A stretch of 64,000 nucleotides of DNA. Origin: Gracilariopsis chorda (lineage: Eukaryota; Rhodophyta; Florideophyceae; Gracilariales; Gracilariaceae). The notes below the pieces were generated by a model. That model saw only the letters and a program-made list of their open reading frames with translations. It ran no database searches and was not told the DNA's origin. The stretch spans positions 248,001 to 312,000 of the forward strand of contig NBIV01000008.1 in NCBI GenBank assembly GCA_003194525.1. The letters run 5' to 3'. Position 1 is the first letter of the stretch. Each line of letters starts with the position of its first letter. A program made the position numbers and the translations under genes. Positions 36,619-63,400 of this stretch are shown one piece after another.

Positions 36619-39600
36619 TCACCGCAACACATGGCCAAACGGTACGAAAGAGGTTGTATGTGCTTTGGCAAAGTACTTTTCTCCAACTTGAATGGCGAAT
36701 CTGTCTGTAGAGGCTAGGAGTTGCCCTTGGCCAGCAGCATTGCGGGCCGTAATCTGCATACCACAATGCGGAACCTCGTGTATCTCAAGCTGAGCAAGTC
36801 CGAAACGGTGCACGGTGTGGGCCCATGCGCTGTGGGTGGAATCGATGATGCACTCGGCGCGCGTCACGTCCCACAGTCGACCGTGGCCTGTGACATCGAT
36901 GGACAAAACACGCACTCCTTGCGCATCCGTTTGAACGTGTCTGACGCCTCTGTTGTGAATGATCGGATCGCCGATGGGTTGCGCAGTGTCCACATCCCAC
37001 AGGCGAACCGTGCGGTCGAGTGATCCGGACACAACTCGTTTGCCATCGGCGCTCCATGCCACGCACCACACCGAAGCCGTATGTCCGCGAAGCGATACGG
37101 CCGAACATGTGGTCACATCCCAAATACGAACCGTGTTGTCCTCTCCGCCGGACACAACTCGAGTCCAGTCGCGGCTCATAGCGCAACAGCATACGGTGTC
37201 AGTGTAGCCGCTGAGACGCTCAACGATGCGGCCACTGCCCGTATCGAACACAATCAGCTGCGGACCTCTCAGCAGCCCAACGACTGCTCGCGTGCCGTCA
37301 TTGCTCACCGCAACGCACTCAGCGCTCTCTCTCAGCGGTGCACCAACAGTTGCACCGCTGTCTGCGTCCCACACTCGCACAGTGCCGTCATATGACGCCG
37401 ACACAATCCGAGTGCCGTCTCCACTCAGCGCCACCAAGTTCACACTATCGGTGTGGCCCCGCAGAGGCTCCCCAATCACTTGTCCATTTTCAACGTTCAT
37501 CAAGCGAACACATCCATCATTCGACCCAAGTACAGCCCGCGTGCCACTGCCAACGTAAGCGAAACATTCAATGCTAATTGTGAAGCGTTCACTATCGTGC
37601 GACGTCTCCACATTTCTTTCAACGTCCCACACCCGCAATGTCCCATCATCTGATGTGGAAACAACCTCATTGCAGTCTGCACTTATTGCCACATGTTCTA
37701 CAGCTGCCGTGTGCTCTAACAGCGGTGCGCCGATCATCTCACCTTTTTCCGCGTCCCAGACACAAGCAGTGCAATCCCTCGATCCGGACACAGCCACTCT
37801 TCCGTCGCTGCTTATCGCAACACAACGCACCCAGTCCGAGTGGCCCATCATCTTTCGCACTGACCTCTCAGTGCTGTCAATGTCCCACACCACAACCTCA
37901 CCGTTGAACGAGCCCAACACTATTCTCCCTCCATCAGCGCTCACTGCAGCACACACCGCTTTAACGCGTCTGATCTCAGTAGCCACTGCCATCCATGTTC
38001 CACAACTGCCATCCCACACGTGAACACTGCCATTGTACAAAACGCACACGACCCGCCCACCGTCACAGCTCGCTGCAACACATTCCACTTGTCCTCCTTC
38101 GGCCAGTGCCTCAAGCGCAATACCCACACTATCACCGTGTTCAAAGCTTCGCACGGTAACGACGCCCTCTGATTCACCACATACAATCTTCGATCCGTCT
38201 CCAGTCATTGCCACACATTTCACATTCCTGCTGTCACCATTCAAAAGCGCACTCCACTGACCACTGCGACGCCTGTCAAGCTTGTATCCCGTGTGAATAT
38301 CCCAAAACCGTACCCTTCCGTCTCTGTACACGGTCATCACCTTCTTCATTCTCTTCAAAAACGTAGCACATGTACATTTGTGCTTCTGATTCAAAGCTTC
38401 ATACTCACTGCTTGAAAGAGAGGCACACACTGAGTCTTCAGAACCCTCATCTTCAGCAAGTGCGTACTCCATCCGCCTGCTGTACCTTTTGTCGTATTCA
38501 ATCACAGCAACTGTACTATAATCAAAGGAAGTCTGGACGACCCGAATCACATCTCCTCCGTGCCATAAACAAAGCACTCTGCCATTGATCACAACTGACT
38601 CCAAAGCCGCACCTCCCGCAGCGATTGCAAACCCGACGGTAGGCTTCAGCCAAGGTCGGGGCGCATGTTGTTCGATCTCACACGTAAATGTCCTTGTCCT
38701 CTCACAGTGCTGTGCATACCAAACAACACGCGCATACATTTGGTACCAAGCCTCATAGCTGTTCTGCGACACAGCATTACAGCTCATCCGAGCCGCACGA
38801 CGTACTATGTCCAAGTACTTCAGCAATTCCCTCCGTTCCACGCTCTTCTTCCTCGCCACTTCTTCTCCGATTCGCAAATCTTCTTCTACACTGTTGATAC
38901 CACCCCTCTGCAGCCGCATAACGATCCATTGTGCCCTTCCTAACAACCACAACAATTCCTCTGTTTCTCCTGCTTCTTGCAGAATTCGGCAAACGTTGTC
39001 TGCAATGTATCCGTCGTCTTCAACATTCCACCACGATCTGAACAAACACCACTCTTCGTCCTCTAATACCCAACCCTCTGCGTCATGTTCTTCTCCCAAT
39101 ATCTTCTTTTGATCTGTCACGTCTGTTTCCCGATTTGGGTGCTTCCTACTCCGCTTTGGAATAGGTAACAACCTTTTACGCGATTTAGTTGTTGAAGGAC
39201 CAGCTTCTGTTGCCATATCTTTTCTTTCCATACTGGTATTCATGCAGCGGTCTCTTCGCATGTAGTTGTCAGCAAGCGTCCTGAAACAAATCTTCACTTC
39301 ACAATTCTCTACTGCTTTGCGCATTGCGATGTCCAATATCAAGTCGTGCATCTGTATTTGAAACATGTTTCCACTTTCTCTCGTCATTCGTACCAGCGAT
39401 ACTTCATTGAATGCTTCCGCCACCTCTCGAGCCTCACGCAGGTCGCCTAAGTCCCAAAGATTCTGAAGCATTCTGCCGCAAACAGATTGCTGCTTCCGAA
39501 GCACGCAAAACGCCCGAAACATTTTCTCAAAAGCCTTCTTCTCAGATTTTTCCTTGGACTTCAACATATGAAGAGATCTATCCACAATCAAACTCAATGG

Positions 39601-40881
39601 GCCATAACCATAGACGCTCCCATTCCCGAGATTCTCTACTCTTGAGGTCAGGTCTTTGTAGTAGTAGCTCCATGCCTCTTGCTTGTTCACTTTCCGGTTT
39701 TTGCAGTACTCCCATACACTTGCACCTGCAATGCCAAGAGCAAGCGGAAGTCCTTGGCACAAGTCCAGAATACCATTGAAGGCTGTTCTGTTTCGGAAAC
39801 TCATTTGTTTAACGTCAGCAAACATCGTATTAAATCTGGCGTGCTTCCACAGCATAGAAATCGCCTGTGCTCCACGACAATCTCTTTCTTCAAACCGAAT
39901 CTCTTCATTAGCTCCTTGTGACATACGTTCCTGCCTGGTTGTATACACCAATAAGCTCTCGTCGGCCAGCATTGTGCGGAGACCCGTGAGAACATTCGTG
40001 TCAATTCCGTTCACCACCCATATGTCATCAACCAAAAGAAGACACTTGTGAGGCTTGAACCACTTAGTCGCCAAGAGTAATGCTTGCTCAAAATCCCTCA
40101 GACCTCGTATTCTTCCAGCGAGTCGCTCACCACCTGTTATTGCTGCAACCCGTGCGATTCCGTTGATAACGTCAGAAATATTCTTATCGTTTCCAAGTTG
40201 GATGTACAGAACTCCTCCGTGAAACATTGCCTTGATATCCGAGTCCTTCGCTAGCCCTCGCAAGGCACATGTTTTTCCCACGCCGCCCAAACCTGAAGCG
40301 ACGACTCCCAGCATGCCGCTTGTGCTCCCTTTCACTATTGCAGACTTCAATCTCCCCTCATAAGTGTCCTCAGAGTCATAGTTAAGGGTTAGTCTAGGTG
40401 GATTTGGGGGCACATTACTGAACGGCCGATAGGAATCCGCGGCGTCGACATCAGCGGTTATGCTTTGCCGGAGAGAAGGTATTACTGTACAGTGCAGATA
40501 AGTATGAAACGCTGTTAGATTCTTCTCACATTCTTTGAGGATGTTGGTCTTTCTCCGGACACGAACAAGAACGCCTCCTTTCTGTATGTCATGACTAAGA
40601 GATTCAAGTGTTTCACTATTTTGCTGCAGTCTCTGTTTCCAATCGCTCAGAGCACGCGATACGATATCATTGCATGTTGGTAATTCGTCTATACGGGAGT
40701 TCTCAAGTATTGCCGACTCTTGTAATGCGTTGTTGTTTCTCTCCTGTACTTGTTTTAGCCTCCCAGAAAGGTCCTTGGCCAGGTCTTTCCGTTCAAAATA
40801 TCGATTGACATATGTTTCAAGTCTGTCAATCAGTTCAAGCGGTCCGGTAATCGCACCCGCTACGTCAACCACCATGTTCAT
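36619..40881 (-). CDS. STAND NTPase: helical N-domain, NB-ARC, WD40 repeats (NLR-like)
   Basis: The 1,420-residue intronless gene starts at the ATG at 40879-40881 (a second ATG lies two codons on). Residues ~1-140 are helical and amphipathic, with LETYVNRYFERKDLAKDL and LESLSHDIQKGG, reminiscent of four-helix RPW8/HeLo-type signalling domains (inference). NB-ARC follows: Walker A GLGGVGKT (~197-204), Walker B CLLLVDDIW, VYTTRQ (RNBS-B-like), CQGLPLALGIAG (GLPL) and QMHDLILD (MHD). A linker region leads to about 12 WD40 repeats from ~residue 860 to the end (GHTDSVNLVALSGDG, TVRVWDAD and so on). NB-ARC/WD40 is the APAF-1-like layout and is found in many STAND proteins for immunity or cell death. 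Expected to oligomerise on ligand binding by the WD40 part; ligand unknown. Flanked by repeat R1. Confidence 0.93.
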   Translation of the reverse strand: MNMVVDVAGAITGPLELIDRLETYVNRYFERKDLAKDLSGRLKQVQERNNNALQESAILENSRIDELPTCNDIVSRALSDWKQRLQQNSETLESLSHDIQKGGVLVRVRRKTNILKECEKNLTAFHTYLHCTVIPSLRQSITADVDAADSYRPFSNVPPNPPRLTLNYDSEDTYEGRLKSAIVKGSTSGMLGVVASGLGGVGKTCALRGLAKDSDIKAMFHGGVLYIQLGNDKNISDVINGIARVAAITGGERLAGRIRGLRDFEQALLLATKWFKPHKCLLLVDDIWVVNGIDTNVLTGLRTMLADESLLVYTTRQERMSQGANEEIRFEERDCRGAQAISMLWKHARFNTMFADVKQMSFRNRTAFNGILDLCQGLPLALGIAGASVWEYCKNRKVNKQEAWSYYYKDLTSRVENLGNGSVYGYGPLSLIVDRSLHMLKSKEKSEKKAFEKMFRAFCVLRKQQSVCGRMLQNLWDLGDLREAREVAEAFNEVSLVRMTRESGNMFQIQMHDLILDIAMRKAVENCEVKICFRTLADNYMRRDRCMNTSMERKDMATEAGPSTTKSRKRLLPIPKRSRKHPNRETDVTDQKKILGEEHDAEGWVLEDEEWCLFRSWWNVEDDGYIADNVCRILQEAGETEELLWLLGRAQWIVMRLQRGGINSVEEDLRIGEEVARKKSVERRELLKYLDIVRRAARMSCNAVSQNSYEAWYQMYARVVWYAQHCERTRTFTCEIEQHAPRPWLKPTVGFAIAAGGAALESVVINGRVLCLWHGGDVIRVVQTSFDYSTVAVIEYDKRYSRRMEYALAEDEGSEDSVCASLSSSEYEALNQKHKCTCATFLKRMKKVMTVYRDGRVRFWDIHTGYKLDRRRSGQWSALLNGDSRNVKCVAMTGDGSKIVCGESEGVVTVRSFEHGDSVGIALEALAEGGQVECVAASCDGGRVVCVLYNGSVHVWDGSCGTWMAVATEIRRVKAVCAAVSADGGRIVLGSFNGEVVVWDIDSTERSVRKMMGHSDWVRCVAISSDGRVAVSGSRDCTACVWDAEKGEMIGAPLLEHTAAVEHVAISADCNEVVSTSDDGTLRVWDVERNVETSHDSERFTISIECFAYVGSGTRAVLGSNDGCVRLMNVENGQVIGEPLRGHTDSVNLVALSGDGTRIVSASYDGTVRVWDADSGATVGAPLRESAECVAVSNDGTRAVVGLLRGPQLIVFDTGSGRIVERLSGYTDTVCCCAMSRDWTRVVSGGEDNTVRIWDVTTCSAVSLRGHTASVWCVAWSADGKRVVSGSLDRTVRLWDVDTAQPIGDPIIHNRGVRHVQTDAQGVRVLSIDVTGHGRLWDVTRAECIIDSTHSAWAHTVHRFGLAQLEIHEVPHCGMQITARNAAGQGQLLASTDRFAIQVGEKYFAKAHTTSFVPFGHVLR

Positions 40882-42692
40882 GTTTCTGGAACGGTACACT
40901 TGGGTGTCTTCATGTGTGTAATGATACGGAATGTTCTACTTGCGAACCATCTCCCGCTGGTCTCGTCGTTGAAGGGATCACCAAAAAGAAAGTGAAGCGA
41001 ACAGCAAGATTGCGCCAGATGGGATGAAGGACGCGGACGTTGGTGTTGCAAGCGATTTTGAAACGACGCAACATGAAAGCTGATGTGAGCGCGGATAGTT
41101 ATTCGAGCCATGCTTCTCTTCAGTTCGACAGGTAGATAGGACTTTAGGGGCTAGCTAGACATGGGGGGCGCTCCTTGCATTGTGGACACAATGCATGGGA
41201 TGTGTAACTGCCGTTGTACCTTTGTAACTTCTTAACCTGACGTACGAAACCATGGGGGGTTAGCGGTCAGAAGGGCTGAACTTCAAGGATATTGAACACA
41301 TTCAAGACATTAAAAACTGTAAAATTTTGCACAGCTTTTGGTACCTCCCGCACCGATGGTAGACAAAGAAGGGCTTAACTTGAGACAAAGACAAAGCTTG
41401 GACTTATCGTCTCTTGAAACTTGTGTTCTGTTTTTGGCATAGTGGCACTGAATCTTGTCAGTATAAACCGCAACAGTGCAAACTATGGCAAAACTAACTT
41501 AGTAATTGCGGCAGTGTTAAGATAACGGACGTTCTTGCTTTCTTTAACGCAATGCAATGCCAAACGCGTTTGGTGCACGAATTGGAAAAAAAAGCGAACA
41601 GCTACACAATAAACGTTAACCAAAACTAAAACGCTTCTTTGCACCGCTCATCTACTATTCTTTCTTCTAAACGGAAGACGCAAAAGCTCTTACCCCTGAG
41701 TACTTCACATTCCAAGTTTGCAGCCACTTTATTGAAGCTACGAAGGGTACATTTTTGCCGATTTTGGCACTCCCAAAACCCAAAGCTCCTGCAATTGACA
41801 TCCTGATAGACATACTCTGTTTTCTGCCTTAATTTGGATCTGTACTAGAAGTCAAATTTTTACAAAACCAAAATTGGGCTAATTACAATAAAGAAAAACA
41901 GGTTTCTCTCATCTTCAGCCACCTTTTCGTCTCAACTTAAGCCCTGTCTCAAGTAAAGCCTTTCTCACCGCTAACCCTTTTAACTGCTTTTGTAGTAGTA
42001 CTGTAGTAGATCATCAATGATGTCCAAGCCGGAAAACGGGCTGCCCGCCGGAGTCTGTGTCTTGCGGTGGCAAGAGAGGAGGTGAATGGCATCTCGTCCT
42101 CAAGAGCCTGAAATCCTGCCCCACTCCCCGCAGAAACGCACACATCAAGATGTTTTATGGCACCTCAAAAAGGGCGATTTCACGACACGTGGCGAACAAC
42201 AAGTGCATCAAATGCTCCCATTGCCAAGAAGATCATCATCTAATGAGCGAGAAGCCATTCGCGTGTACTGCGCGTGCCCCGCTCTGGATCGTGTTATCCA
42301 CCCTTATTCGTGCATGGCGCTTCTCCGCAGTTGTGATCTCTATCTCACATAGACCTTTGTCCTGAAACTGGCCAGATTTGGGTACTCTCCTTCTGCTATT
42401 AGAAGCGGCATGTTATGGAATGGCCCTCCTTCCAAACGGATATCCTCATAGAATGGCGGTCTTTGCAGGCTGCGTTTTCATAAAGCAGTCTTGTGATATT
42501 GTCGTTTCATCTCTGCCATGTCACAAAGGTTCTCATTGTATCATCGCAGTTCGGTCTTCTTCAACCTGTATAAAACCCCACCATGGCCTGCTGCTTCTGT
42601 TCAAATCACACCACACATCTCGACAACAACGATTGCTACCCACAACCAACTTATTAAACCACTGAACTGCTACCTCATTAGCCTTTTTGAAT
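40882..42692. other. 1.8-kb intergenic between the NB-ARC and haloperoxidase-like genes
   Basis: 41211-41229 has a CCGTTGTACC motif. 41270-41960 is A/T-richer without genes. Two weak frames at 42057-42365 are unsupported. The last 130 bp hold the TATA box listed separately. Confidence 0.45.
42569..42575 (+). promoter_or_regulatory. TATA box of the haloperoxidase-like gene
   Basis: TATAAAA at 42569-42575, 118 bp before the ATG at 42693, in a sequence otherwise free of A/T runs. Position is consistent with a start site near 42600 and a short 5' UTR. Confidence 0.45.
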
Positions 42693-44237
42693 ATGGAACC
42701 GCGCTGCAAAGCAGTCATAGCAATCATAGCCACGGTCATTGCATTTTTGCCCCGAATTCGAGGACAGCAAGTATCAGATGTACGCATGCCGTCACTAGCC
42801 GACTTGCTCACAATCTCAACAAATCCTCCAAATGAGGCGCTCAACGCTTTCTTTCCTCCGTCCATCTTCAATGCCCAGACACCCTTAGCGATTCGGTATG
42901 CCCTACTTGGAGCAGTTGGTCAATATGAGATGTATGCAGCCTGTCATCCCGTCGCTCTTTCTTTCTTCGGTCAAAAGGATTCTATACCAAGTCAGTTCTG
43001 CACTAATCGTGACGATCGCGCTCTCATTCAGGCCCAGATATTCTTCCGTATAATGGAATCACAGTTTCCAATTGATGCGAAACCTGGTGAGACATTTTTC
43101 CTTAAGATCGGGTTGAACCCCTTCGATCGCTCAACCAATACGTCAACTCCAGTGGGTTGGGCAAATGTAATTGCGAGCCGGTTCCTCGATTACTTCAGCA
43201 AAGACGGCTGGAACTCGCTGGGAGACCGATCAAAGCGCCATTACCGTCAGCAATACCAAGACTTCACCAACTACGCTCCTGTCAACCCTGCGCACGTTCA
43301 GCCGCGGAACCTCCCGTTTCCTCTCCGCTGGCAGCCGCTTACGGGGCCTGTTGACAATCGAGGATTGTTCGGTAGCCAGTTGCACGTCGTTCCTCAGATT
43401 GGCGTGCGCGGAAAACCACTTGCTTTATCACGTCGTCAGTTTGAACAACGTCGCGCACCACCGTTATACAACACTCCGAACCGACGCAAGTTCCTCGGAC
43501 GGAAGGATCGCGCACTAGCAAACCGTCTCATCCGGAAGCTGTTTAAGCGATCTGCTAACGTGACCGAAGAAAAGGTTCTTGTCGGCTACTTTTGGGAAAA
43601 CAAGTTCTTCTCTCTCGGGCTGTTCGCCGGATTCTACCAAAATCTATTGGGACTTGGTGATGATATCATGATACCGTTGTTCCTAGCTGAGATGGTTGCT
43701 CAACACGATGCAACTTTGGTAGCGTGGAAGGAAAAGAGGCGTCATGACAATGTTCGTCCCGTCACACTTATCAGACGTTTGTTGAAGGGAAAGAAAGTTC
43801 GCGCATGGAAGGGGCTGGAGGAAGGTGTTGGGCTGGTAGATGCAGTGGAATGGGAACCTGTTGTTCCAATCCAGCCACATTCAGAATATCCTTCAGGATC
43901 GGCTGTTATCTGTACAGCATCTCTGGAAAACTTACAAATCTTCCTTGATGAACAGGTGATCAAGGGGAACGGCACAATCCCGCCTTTCGAGATGGATATT
44001 GTCCCAGGGATGGTGCCGAACAGCCCAGTTGAGAACACTATTAAGGTGGTCTTCAACACGTTGGAAGAAGCCGCACAAAGTTGTGGTGAGTCTAGACTTG
44101 ACTCTGGCGTTCATTTTGAGCCTTCCGTGCCAGCTGGAAATAGCTTGGGTAAGGGTCTTGGAAAGATAGCGTATGCTCATATAATGGACTTGGTGAACGG
44201 TAGGATTCCCGAAAACTGTGAACGCTGTGTTAGCTAA
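42693..44237 (+). CDS. Secreted vanadium-dependent haloperoxidase-like protein (PAP2 fold)
   Basis: The 514-residue intronless protein has a signal peptide (MEPRCKAVIAIIATVIAFLP, then RIRGQQ). The vanadate-binding signature of vanadium haloperoxidases is present: Lys and Arg in WKEKRRHDNVRP (~347-355), YPSGSA (~398-403) and SRLDSGVHF (Arg and the vanadium-ligating His, ~468-475). Fungal chloroperoxidase has YPSGHA at the second motif; here the acid-base His is Ser, a change also known from some bacterial vanadium iodoperoxidases (established knowledge, from memory). It would oxidise halides with hydrogen peroxide in the apoplast, with iodide the likeliest guess. Start at 42693 is the first ATG of the frame. 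A TATA box lies 118 bp upstream. It might instead be a non-halide PAP2-type phosphatase relative. Confidence 0.83.
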   Translation: MEPRCKAVIAIIATVIAFLPRIRGQQVSDVRMPSLADLLTISTNPPNEALNAFFPPSIFNAQTPLAIRYALLGAVGQYEMYAACHPVALSFFGQKDSIPSQFCTNRDDRALIQAQIFFRIMESQFPIDAKPGETFFLKIGLNPFDRSTNTSTPVGWANVIASRFLDYFSKDGWNSLGDRSKRHYRQQYQDFTNYAPVNPAHVQPRNLPFPLRWQPLTGPVDNRGLFGSQLHVVPQIGVRGKPLALSRRQFEQRRAPPLYNTPNRRKFLGRKDRALANRLIRKLFKRSANVTEEKVLVGYFWENKFFSLGLFAGFYQNLLGLGDDIMIPLFLAEMVAQHDATLVAWKEKRRHDNVRPVTLIRRLLKGKKVRAWKGLEEGVGLVDAVEWEPVVPIQPHSEYPSGSAVICTASLENLQIFLDEQVIKGNGTIPPFEMDIVPGMVPNSPVENTIKVVFNTLEEAAQSCGESRLDSGVHFEPSVPAGNSLGKGLGKIAYAHIMDLVNGRIPENCERCVS

Positions 44238-60202: not shown

Positions 60203-63200
60203 AAGGTGCGCTTGCTCCTAGACATCCAATTAAGGTGTCTGCCCACCGCAGCACCGTCCCCAGGCGCAAACGCTTCGAGCGTAACCGGCACAGGAAGGAA
60301 GTCGTAGACCTCACTCCTGTCTACAGTTCTTCGTTCACAAAACGGACTGAAAAGGGATTCCGTCCTGGCTTTTGCGTTGACATAGGCGCACCGCGCTCCG
60401 TTATCGGTATCACGGAAGCCCGTAGGATATATCACCGCATTGGGAAAAGGTTACGACTACTGCGATCCAATCGCAAGATCAGATTCGCGGACTCGGTATA
60501 TGACTCCTTGGGAAGAGAGATGATCCCTTTGGACACACCACCGGGGATACCCACCATACCGGTTTTGTTTGATGTGATATCAGCCGACGTTCCTGCCCTA
60601 ATGAAAATGGATGTGCTCGATCAACACAAGTTGACTCCCTGAACAGTCACCGATAGGCTAATCAAGCGGACCATAATGGATGATGGAGACAACTCCTTCG
60701 CCATGGACGATTGGCACATACCCCTAACGAGGTTTGATGGACATCTCTATGCCCAATACTCCGTTCCGGTTTTAACGATGTTCAGTACTCAGCAGTTAAC
60801 GAAGCTGCACCGACAGTTCTTCCATCCATCTTCGGAGAAACTGTACAACCTCTTAAGAAAAAACACGACCGGAAGACACCACCACGGAGACACAAAAGCA
60901 ACTCGAAGACATCAGTCGCTCTTGTGATCCCTGCCAAAGGATTCAGGCTGGACCAACTCGGTTTAAGGTTTCCATTGGTACCGAGAACATTCGGTTCAAT
61001 GAAGAATTCATCATTGACATCATGTACTTCGATGGTAAACCAGTTCTCCATATGGTGGATGCGCAGACACACTTCTCCGCGGCTCGGTTTTTGTCAGATG
61101 TATCAACAAAGTCCATCTGGAAGTGTGTCGTTCAGTGTTGGATACTGATATACACTGGCATACCGAACCATATAAAAATGGACCAAGGCTCCGCATTCGG
61201 GAACAATTTCATTTCCCTCGCCAAGGCCTCCAACATTGATGTTGTCCGCACGGGAATAGAAGCCCACTCGTCTATGGGTATTGTTGAACGCTACCACGAC
61301 CCACTGCGAAAGACCTTCAGGAAACTGAAGCTTGCTTCACCCAAAATGGACTCCGGCATGCTTCTCGCATTCTCATTTTATGCGATGAACAACACCTTAG
61401 GACCAGAAGGATTAGTGCCGTCCGTATTGGTATTTGGGGAATTTCCCTCACTCCGCACGATCGGCGAAGAATTACAGTCTAGAGCCACTCTGGACGAAAG
61501 GGCCAAACTGGCAAGCACCGCACGGAGGGAGATGGAGCAACATATGGCGAAGCTCCGCGTTCAACGCGCATTGCGTCATAATGTTCCGCCTTCGGCTAAT
61601 GTCACATACCAAGTTGGTGACAAAGTCCTCGTCTGGAGGGAGAAGCTAATTAAAAACCGTATCGGGGAATGGATCGGACCCTTTGAGGTGAATATCGTGG
61701 ATAACAACTCCAAATTGGTTTACTTACGCTTATCGCCCGACTCGGACTTAAGCTCCTTCAGCTTTGCACAGGTTAAACCATATGTATCCGCCTCAGAGGT
61801 AACGCACACTCACATGTGTGAGCTCCTTAATGGTTTCTTGAAATACCGTTCAGGCTCTGATGATGTCTACATGACTGAGATTATAAGTGCTGCCGACCCC
61901 CGCTCGAAAGATCCCCGGATGACGGAGGCAAAGAAGGCCGAACTCCGTGGACTTTTAGAACGAGGCACCTTTAAGGTCATTCTTAAGCAGGACATTCCAC
62001 CAGACGGTAATGCTTTACCTGGACGATTTGTTTTGGCAATCAAGTCTACCGAAGATGGTGAAGAAAAGTTCAAGGCCCGATATGTTATCGGAGGACACCG
62101 CGATCGGATGAAACACCTCATGGCGCACTACAACCAGACACTTCAGCCGCAAACCGTTCGGATTATACTTGCACTCTCAGCCCTCTTAGGTTACGATGTC
62201 TGGACTAATGACATTACGCAAGCGTACTTGCAGTCAATGGAACCGCTTTCACGCGATCTCTATATCGCCAACCCCGTTGAGGAATTCGAACTCGAGCCAC
62301 ACCAGTGTTTGCAGCTCCTGAAGCCCCTCTATGGTCTTTGTGAATCAGGTGACCTTTGGTTTGCCACTATGGACAAACATCACCGTTCGGACTTGGGGAT
62401 GAAAGCGCTACGCTCTGACCCCGCGCTCCACTATTTGATCCGCAACGGCATCCTTATAGTTGTATCAGGGTCATACGTCGATGACCTACTCCGCTCTGGG
62501 ACGAAAGACTTCCGCAGGATATGCAAGTTGACCAGCGAGAAGTTCGAGGCAAAGCCTGACTCAGAACTACCATGCACCTTTACAGGATTTCAAATTGAAC
62601 AAGACCGTTCCGGTAATGCATGCATATCGCAGCAGAAGTATGTCGAGAAACTGAAACCGTTATCGGTCAATTGCACCTTTGAGGACTTCGCTTCAATCCG
62701 CATGAAGCTTGCTTGGCTCGCTCATTCGCGTATAGACATTCTATACGAAATCTCACAGTTCACGCAAGTCACACGCGATCGCTTTGAGGCAGACCGCGAA
62801 AGGATCCTAAAGGAAGTGGACGAAACCATACAGGTATTGAAGAAGTACCCAGTATCGCTGTACTTTCCTAAATTGGACATCGACTCCCTACAGGTTCTTG
62901 GTGTATCAGATGCATCGTTCGCCACCAATGCGGACTTAACTTCTCAATTGGGCTACCTCTTGTTCCTTTCTGACCGCTCTGGAGCTGTGGTACCAATTGG
63001 TTTCAAGTCCTACAAGGCGCGCAGAGTCACCCGTTCGGCGTTTGCAGCAGAACTCATCGCCTTTGCGGACATGTTCGACATCGCCTACACTCTGTCTACC
63101 GAACTCGGACTTTTACTTAGTCGCTCACCGCTACCGGTTTCTCTCCTGACGGATTCGAAGTCGCTCTTCGACATTATCCACAAGGGGTCACGCACCGCAG

Positions 63201-63400
63201 AGAAGCGATTGATGATAGACATCGCTATCGCCCGTGAAGGATACCGCTTGGGACAGATCTCCGACATCGGTTTTATTCGCAGTGGCCAAAACTTGGCGGA
63301 CCACCTCACCAAAAGGACGGACAGGACACCACTTCGGACTGTTCTCCGTAAAGTTTACTGGCATGTGAAGCCAGTGCAGTTCATACTCCGTTCGGATTAG
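60142..63400 (+). pseudogene. copia pol: protease-integrase-RT-RNase H (stop and frameshift)
   Basis: The pol frame is open from 60142, -1 relative to gag. Protease reads CVDIGAPRSVIG (usual D-T/S-G changed to D-I-G). A TGA at 60640 interrupts it. The integrase zinc region (LHRQFFHPSS ... SCDPCQ) spans a +1 shift at the A6 run near 60860; the core has Asp, Asp and Glu in IDIMYFD, MDQGSAFGNN and GIVERYH. RT holds YVDDLL (SYVDDLLRSG). RNase H has VSDASFA, AAELIAFAD, LLTDSKSL and ADHLTK. The frame from 61022 to the stop at 63398-63400 is clean for 792 codons. Confidence 0.92.

Follow-up and report, generated by a model that had tools for sequence, protein, structure and literature searches.

The NLR-type gene

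The window analysed here, a 64,000-nt stretch of the red alga Gracilariopsis chorda (contig NBIV01000008.1, positions 248,001 to 312,000), carries on its minus strand an intronless gene of the NLR type. Its open reading frame (ORF) runs in a single frame from an ATG at 40881 to a stop at 36619. An in-frame GTG lies 18 nt 5′ of this ATG; most aligned paralogs begin level with the ATG, which supports it as the start. In its NB-ARC motifs and C-terminal WD40 repeats, the predicted protein agrees with the STAND/NB-ARC receptors of NLR type. Its features, in window coordinates, are:

36619..40881, minus strand: NLR/STAND ORF of 1,420 residues, with N-terminal domain (N-domain), NB-ARC, helical middle region and WD40 array
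40399..40881, minus strand: N-terminal helical domain, residues 1-161, kept across the family, no Pfam family found
39640..40350, minus strand: NB-ARC core (PF00931, 42 bits, E = 2.2e-9, cut-off 23.5)
40270-40293, minus strand: Walker A, GLGGVGKT, residues 197-204
40018-40041, minus strand: Walker B, LLLVDDIW, residues 281-288
39934-39948, minus strand: RNBS-B-like motif, VYTTR, residues 312-316
39739-39753, minus strand: GLPL motif, GLPLA, residues 377-381
39340..39351, minus strand: MHD motif, MHDL, residues 511-514
38482..39249, minus strand: linker and middle region, residues ~545-800
36868..38250, minus strand: WD40 array, residues ~878-1338, about 12 blades, with hypervariable register positions 16, 17, 19, 35 and 37

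A preliminary description of this DNA had claimed a full NLR-like architecture, with five NB-ARC motifs in order joined to WD40 repeats. The five motifs are present in that order between residues 197 and 514, hidden Markov models recognise both the NB-ARC module and the WD40 repeats (PF00400, E = 5e-52), and the exact 1,420-residue ORF unites NB-ARC, MHD and WD40. The C-terminus is WD40 and not the leucine-rich repeat (LRR) sensor of plant NBS-LRR proteins. No Pfam match was found in the middle region (38500-39345) at E 0.001. The nucleotide-binding domain (NBD) has few matches in the PDB, all of them weak, the best being ADR1 (E = 8e-4, 60 residues around the P-loop). PADLOC gave a single, WD40-driven match to the protein.

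The WD40 part matches 52 Pfam families, of which the best 25 are without exception WD40 or propeller families; APAF-1 chains match the protein through this part at E = 1e-46. About 12 repeats, as in APAF-1, had been proposed. The repeat model built in this analysis detects 10 blades. A single-sequence AlphaFold2 (AF2) model of residues 795-1345, with a predicted local distance difference test (pLDDT) score of 70 overall and above 80 across much of its second half, consists of regular four-strand blades with strands as far as residue ~1338, an extent that fits about 12. Structural comparison of this model gives WD40 propellers as its best matches; the highly repetitive protein 2ymu superposes over 441 residues with a root-mean-square deviation of 12.4 Å, so that the model does not fix how two propellers are placed relative to each other. 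The blades of the window gene are diverged, without repeat homogenisation.

Paralogs and their variable blade positions

The genome scanned (91.3 Mb, 1,081 contigs) has NB-ARC places on 39 contigs, 54 in total, each scoring above the cut-off; contigs with several copies hold two to five (C153 five, C74 and C217 three each; contigs are designated C and paralogs L). This count of a varying, multicopy family excludes a single-copy housekeeping gene. At 33 of the 54 places the frame stays open for at least 900 residues, and decayed copies also occur. Thirty-six places were read, 22 long ORFs (the window's included) were aligned, and 18 and 14 of these entered trees. GK[T/S] and the HD of the MHD motif are kept in all 22. 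The NACHT model had no genome match at E 0.001. TIR (PF01582) was found at three places, all adjoining NB-ARC (C152:69584-69907, L026:1464-2858 and L033:1544-3199), which form a separate class of the family; at the two that were read, TIR_2 and NB-ARC share one frame. APAF1_C matched only on C395 and C247, and not in the window gene. L024, on C395, encodes a 1,617-residue NB-ARC protein with an APAF1_C match and is a more distant branch of the family.

In the paralogs, an excess of replacement over synonymous change is concentrated on a few blade positions. Exact 43-residue WD40 repeats scoring over 75 bits were compared, 41 in all, from seven paralogs (L014, L016, L018, L019, L020, L021 and L027); L020 contributes two repeats, and L015 and L028 were excluded from the repeat counts. 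Mean protein identity between repeats of the same gene is 0.845-0.977, and the paralogs differ in repeat number. Of the 43 positions, 35, 17, 37 and 19 rank highest in nonsynonymous diversity; when genes are compared with one another, positions 8 and 12 follow at a short distance, largely because the genes carry different fixed residues there. Over 114 within-gene repeat pairs, the four positions account for 242 of 420 amino-acid differences (293 when position 16 is added) and for 0 of 73 synonymous codon differences, 8 of which fall at position 16. The proportion of nonsynonymous differences (pN) is 0.316 at the four positions and 0.021 at the others, and that of synonymous differences (pS) is 0.026. 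The pN/pS ratio is thus 12.0 at 17, 19, 35 and 37 and 0.79 elsewhere, by simple counting rather than codon models, and gene conversion may lower pS and so raise it. V18 and D36 are invariant in all 41 repeats; the positions that flank them, 17/19 and 35/37, carry 30 residue combinations. By lineage, these are the top four positions in L014/L016 and, together with 16, the only five in L019/L020/L021; the protein variation of L016, L019 and L021 repeats is confined to these five.

The nearest WD40 relatives of the window gene, L029-L032, have diverged blades in which the same positions stand out. Among the blades placed in register, position 35 varies in 10 of 10, position 19 in 10 of 11, position 17 in 7 of 10 and position 37 in 3 of 10. 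Varying codons make up 30 of 41 at the four positions vs 47 of 326 elsewhere (p = 1e-14), with 93 further columns, 16 of them variable, not placeable in register. All six L029-L032 pairs have a pN/pS of 3.6-6.1 at the four positions. Between the window gene and L032, 30 of 39 codons differ at these positions vs 86 of 324 elsewhere.

The four positions were expected from the fungus Podospora. There, the WD40 repeats of het-d/het-e evolve in concert. Diversifying selection acts on codons 7, 9, 25 and 27, the neighbours of the conserved codons 8 and 26; they lie on the interaction face, in the d-a loop and the b-c turn (PMC1805685). Positions 17, 19, 35 and 37 have the identical spacing at an offset of 10; the expectation was taken from PMC1805685 before the diversity ranking, without a written record at that time. 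A 2025 paper on fungal WD40 NLRs uses positions 10, 11, 12, 14, 30, 32 and 39 (PMC12222747), of which 11, 12, 14, 30 and 32 correspond at an offset of 5 to 16, 17, 19, 35 and 37. Both offsets rest on our own interpretation of the two published numberings.

Whole genes were also compared in pairs. In L029 and L030 a common block, -379 to +4357 counted from the ATG, is flanked by unrelated sequence; the two are therefore dispersed duplicates, and an allelic relationship was rejected. Between them, 5 nonsynonymous and 5 synonymous changes lie in the N-domain, NBD and middle region (719 codons), 72.5 and 19.5 in the WD40 part (541 codons), and 8 and 0 in the tail (75 codons). On rounded counts, the WD40 part is enriched in nonsynonymous (p = 3e-22) and in synonymous changes (p = 1.5e-4); the latter excess implies that the array was also exchanged or is older. 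The corresponding values are p = 3.5e-6 and 0.015 for L014/L016, and 4e-10 and 0.07 for L018/L027. Retroposition of the duplicates was set aside, no poly(A) tail being found within 260 nt after the stop in the four copies examined. The pairs L027/L028 and L014/L015, each with its two copies on different contigs, match at 99.3-99.7% identity along 7.8 and 5.5 kb, and may be recent segmental duplicates, uncollapsed haplotypes or alleles, or assembly duplicates. Synonymous divergence between the window gene and L032 is about 2.9 in the NBD, near saturation, and 0.48 in the WD40 part, and their nucleotide identity climbs past residue ~600, a pattern suggesting that the sensor half of the window gene was exchanged. 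A chimeric origin of the window gene is nevertheless no more than a suggestion, since trees of the NBD and the N-domain do not reject its grouping with L029-L032 (approximately unbiased test, p = 0.18 and 0.19).

The N-terminal domain and the neighbourhood

The N-domain is about 160 residues long, and after M1 the residues R31, L92, R107, V108, R110, P158, N160 and P161 are invariant in 13 copies. With residues 1-181 as query, 55 matching places were found in the genome, and a match lies directly upstream in 37 of the 54 NB-ARC places. This undescribed, predicted helical domain is a candidate effector domain. Sixteen of the 55 matches have no adjacent NB-ARC match and were considered as solo partner genes; at the three places read (4 of the 16), they look like decayed receptors. 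On C59 and C276 the match is followed by a P-loop whose frame is truncated or shifted, and C236 holds a short remnant.

The preliminary description took the N-domain for a four-helix bundle of the RPW8/HeLo type. A single-sequence AF2 model is helical with four helices predicted, which makes such a bundle plausible, although the model is very poor (pLDDT 47). The proposed family found no support. In the genome, the RPW8 model (PF05659) had one match, at E 0.65 on another contig and none at the N-domain, and the HeLo (PF14479), Rx_N (PF18052) and MLKL_N (PF22215) models had no match at E 10, in scans with a loose first pass that weak relatives may escape. A Pfam scan of 17 N-domain copies returned no convincing match; hits were scattered and mostly helical or coiled-coil, with a best E of 4e-4 (best 25 of 56 families). 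With a profile of the 17 copies, the MLKL bundle was a weak match (E = 0.31) that ranked behind several chains of coiled-coil or designed helical type. With a narrower profile of 13 copies this match was lost, and At5g66900 appeared over 34 residues (E = 0.84). The latter is an RPW8-type NLR. The N-terminus of the N-domain is mildly hydrophobic. A membrane-disrupting bundle of the HeLo/RPW8/MLKL type would agree with these weak matches, with the predicted helices and with ADR1 as best match of the NBD. However, the four family models fail at the N-domain, and in both profile lists the higher scores go to coiled-coil or other helical chains. An RPW8/HeLo fold is therefore possible, while membership in the family has no support, and we rate a membrane-disrupting bundle of this type as less likely than not.

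Beside the gene lie dispersed repeats, as described earlier, and other genes:

41257..41977, no strand assigned: dispersed 721-bp element bounded by 27-nt terminal inverted repeats, on the upstream side of the NLR gene and 376 bp from its ATG
42687-44237, plus strand: vanadium-chloroperoxidase-like gene (PF22778, DUF6851), divergent from the NLR gene and 1.8 kb away
61022-63400, plus strand: retroelement ORF with RVT_2, which we take to be of Copia type

The inverted repeats of the 721-bp element read GGGTTAGCGGT..., and at least 43 match rows with 65-100% identity were found in the genome (40 scored of 98 candidates). The same terminal sequence also begins where the duplicated block of L030 ends on its 3′ side. 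Elsewhere in the genome, phycobilisome-linker places were seen on seven contigs, one on each; one of these contigs is at least 547 kb long and another is C153, with its five NB-ARC places. Linker places on such contigs agree with a red alga whose linker genes are nuclear.

A putative family of non-self receptors

Taken together, the sequence data suggest a rapidly evolving recognition system, and the window gene probably belongs to a large family of intracellular non-self receptors of the STAND (NLR) type that is diversifying. This reading rests on the ordered motifs, the 54 NB-ARC places and the concentration of amino-acid change on blade positions. It also draws on the selection of the same positions on the fungal het-d/het-e interaction surface (PMC1805685, PMC12222747), and on Pyropia, where several NB-ARC-WD40 genes are reported and three rise 1.5-2.2-fold on infection (PMC6928737). 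In such a receptor, the NB-ARC/MHD module would be held off with nucleotide bound. By analogy with the fungal proteins, the variable positions would lie at the surface. Residues on either side of the conserved V and the conserved D in every blade would form the top face of the WD40 propellers, and this face would bind a protein ligand that keeps changing, whether it comes from a pathogen, from a parasite or from a partner cell of different genotype. Ligand binding would free the NB-ARC module for nucleotide exchange and oligomerisation and would cluster the helical N-domains, which may then signal a defence or death response.

Several observations weigh against this interpretation. The window gene has no close paralog among the copies read (at most 58% NBD identity) and its array is not homogenised, so that selection on this gene itself is shown indirectly; its pN/pS vs L032 is 1.8 at the four positions. 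In L018 and L027, position 37 is invariant within each gene, and positions 28 and 9 vary strongly. Neither L029/L030 (p = 0.06) nor L029/L032 (p = 0.10) shows a significant contrast in nonsynonymous to synonymous change between the WD40 part and the other regions. For L029/L032 and L031/L032, dN is 0.16 and 0.13 in the N-domain vs 0.07 and 0.08 in the WD40 part, with dS also higher in the N-domain; the sensor is therefore not always the fastest part. Whole-array WD40 dN/dS is 0.9-1.3 in the L029-L032, L014/L016 and L018/L027 pairs, which places the signal at particular positions. Finally, misassembly of the repeat arrays is possible.

The family could instead serve allorecognition. It would then control the fusion of genetically different red algae, or the cell fusion through which parasitic red algae enter, much as HET-D/HET-E control heterokaryon formation in Podospora. 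Red-algal chimerism is, however, reportedly non-invasive and reversible. Proteins of the GLTP family, the class of the Podospora HET-C ligand, occur at three genome places (C158:93797, C127:54027 and C9:504888), but such genes are commonplace in eukaryotes. The paralogs share their hypervariable WD40 positions and nearly identical repeats with het-d/het-e (PMC1805685, PMC12222747), whereas the module is NB-ARC and not NACHT. Since interindividual fusion has been reported in red algae (PMC10309991), allorecognition is kept as an alternative, which we judge unlikely even though both it and pathogen recognition are compatible with the data. A fuller version would make the family a somatic non-self system built like HET-D/HET-E, in which exchange of near-identical WD40 repeats supplies the variants, four residues in each blade are diversified by selection, and the receptors keep watch over cell fusion, coalescence or parasites that arrive by fusion. 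Such a system would have evolved independently, on NB-ARC with an undescribed helical effector domain, and we rate it as rather unlikely.

Relaxed constraint, under which exposed blade positions merely tolerate change in expanding and decaying copies without selected function, would explain the decayed copies and the whole-array dN/dS near 1 in several pairs, and homogenisation of synonymous sites by gene conversion could inflate pN/pS. The N-domain divergence in the L032 pairs and the whole-array ratios led us to weigh this explanation slightly higher, and the receptor family slightly lower. Relaxation alone, however, cannot push replacement above synonymous change, as the ratios of 12 overall and 3.6-6.1 in six pairs would require, and GK[T/S] and HD are kept throughout the aligned ORFs; we find it improbable. 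An APAF-1-like apoptosome core, a housekeeping cell-death switch with a conserved cytosolic ligand, shares the NB-ARC and WD40 layout and the strong match to APAF-1 chains, but is very improbable given tens of varying copies, APAF1_C at two other places only, and variation concentrated at ligand-face blade positions.

The reading as a non-self receptor family can be set beside known systems. The preliminary description considered an intact immune-type architecture outside land plants, animals and fungi informative; the architecture is real here, but was already published for Chondrus and Pyropia (PMC7145615, PMC6928737). Chondrus crispus has 61 NB genes, 58 of them NB-WD40 and 23 of those with TIR (Andolfo 2019, PMC7145615), two NB-ARC families are described for multicellular red algae (PMC8307928), and red-algal NB-ARC/APAF1_C/WD40 proteins are on record (PMC8891106). 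The present family thus shares its architecture and lineage with the NB-ARC-WD40 genes of Chondrus, Pyropia and Porphyra, and with Chondrus its tens of copies; TIR is confined to three places here, whereas most NB-ARC places carry the helical N-domain. The accessible text of PMC7145615, PMC6928737 and PMC8307928 holds no mention of selection on WD40 positions, and among the open-licence papers listed, in their accessible text, none was found to report WD40 positions that are hypervariable, or homogenised repeats, from red algae. What is new is the way the WD40 sensor surface diversifies. The pattern names the residues to compare in each blade and paralog, and bears on whether red algae use fast-evolving intracellular recognition or general defences only.

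Plant NLRs of the coiled-coil or RPW8 type (ADR1, ZAR1) likewise have NB-ARC with MHD and are among the few weak PDB matches of the NBD, but here WD40 takes the place of LRR and the N-domain is unmatched by the RPW8 and Rx_N models. APAF-1 combines NB-ARC with WD40 propellers; the red-algal family differs in being multicopy and diversifying, and the window gene in lacking an APAF1_C match. Brown-algal NB-ARC-TPR and LRR-ROCO candidate receptors also represent an algal expansion with diversified repeats, generated by exon shuffling there (PMC11378527) and carried by long single-frame genes here. High internal repeat identity and the 2ymu fold match recall the highly repetitive WD40 proteins of bacteria (Hu 2017, PMC5587647), whereas this is a eukaryotic NB-ARC family with a conserved helical N-domain. 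A parallel in sensor diversification is the fungal HNWD family (HET-D/HET-E/HET-R), with which the red-algal paralogs share near-identical WD40 repeats, differences in repeat number and the same four diversifying positions; the window gene itself lacks the high internal repeat identity of its paralogs. Because the module (NB-ARC vs NACHT) and the N-domain (helical vs HET) differ, the red-algal genes stand outside the HNWD family and resemble it in the mode of sensor diversification. Should specificity in fungi and red algae rest on the same four positions, WD40 NLRs would be a solution to non-self recognition reached repeatedly, outside the world of LRR proteins.

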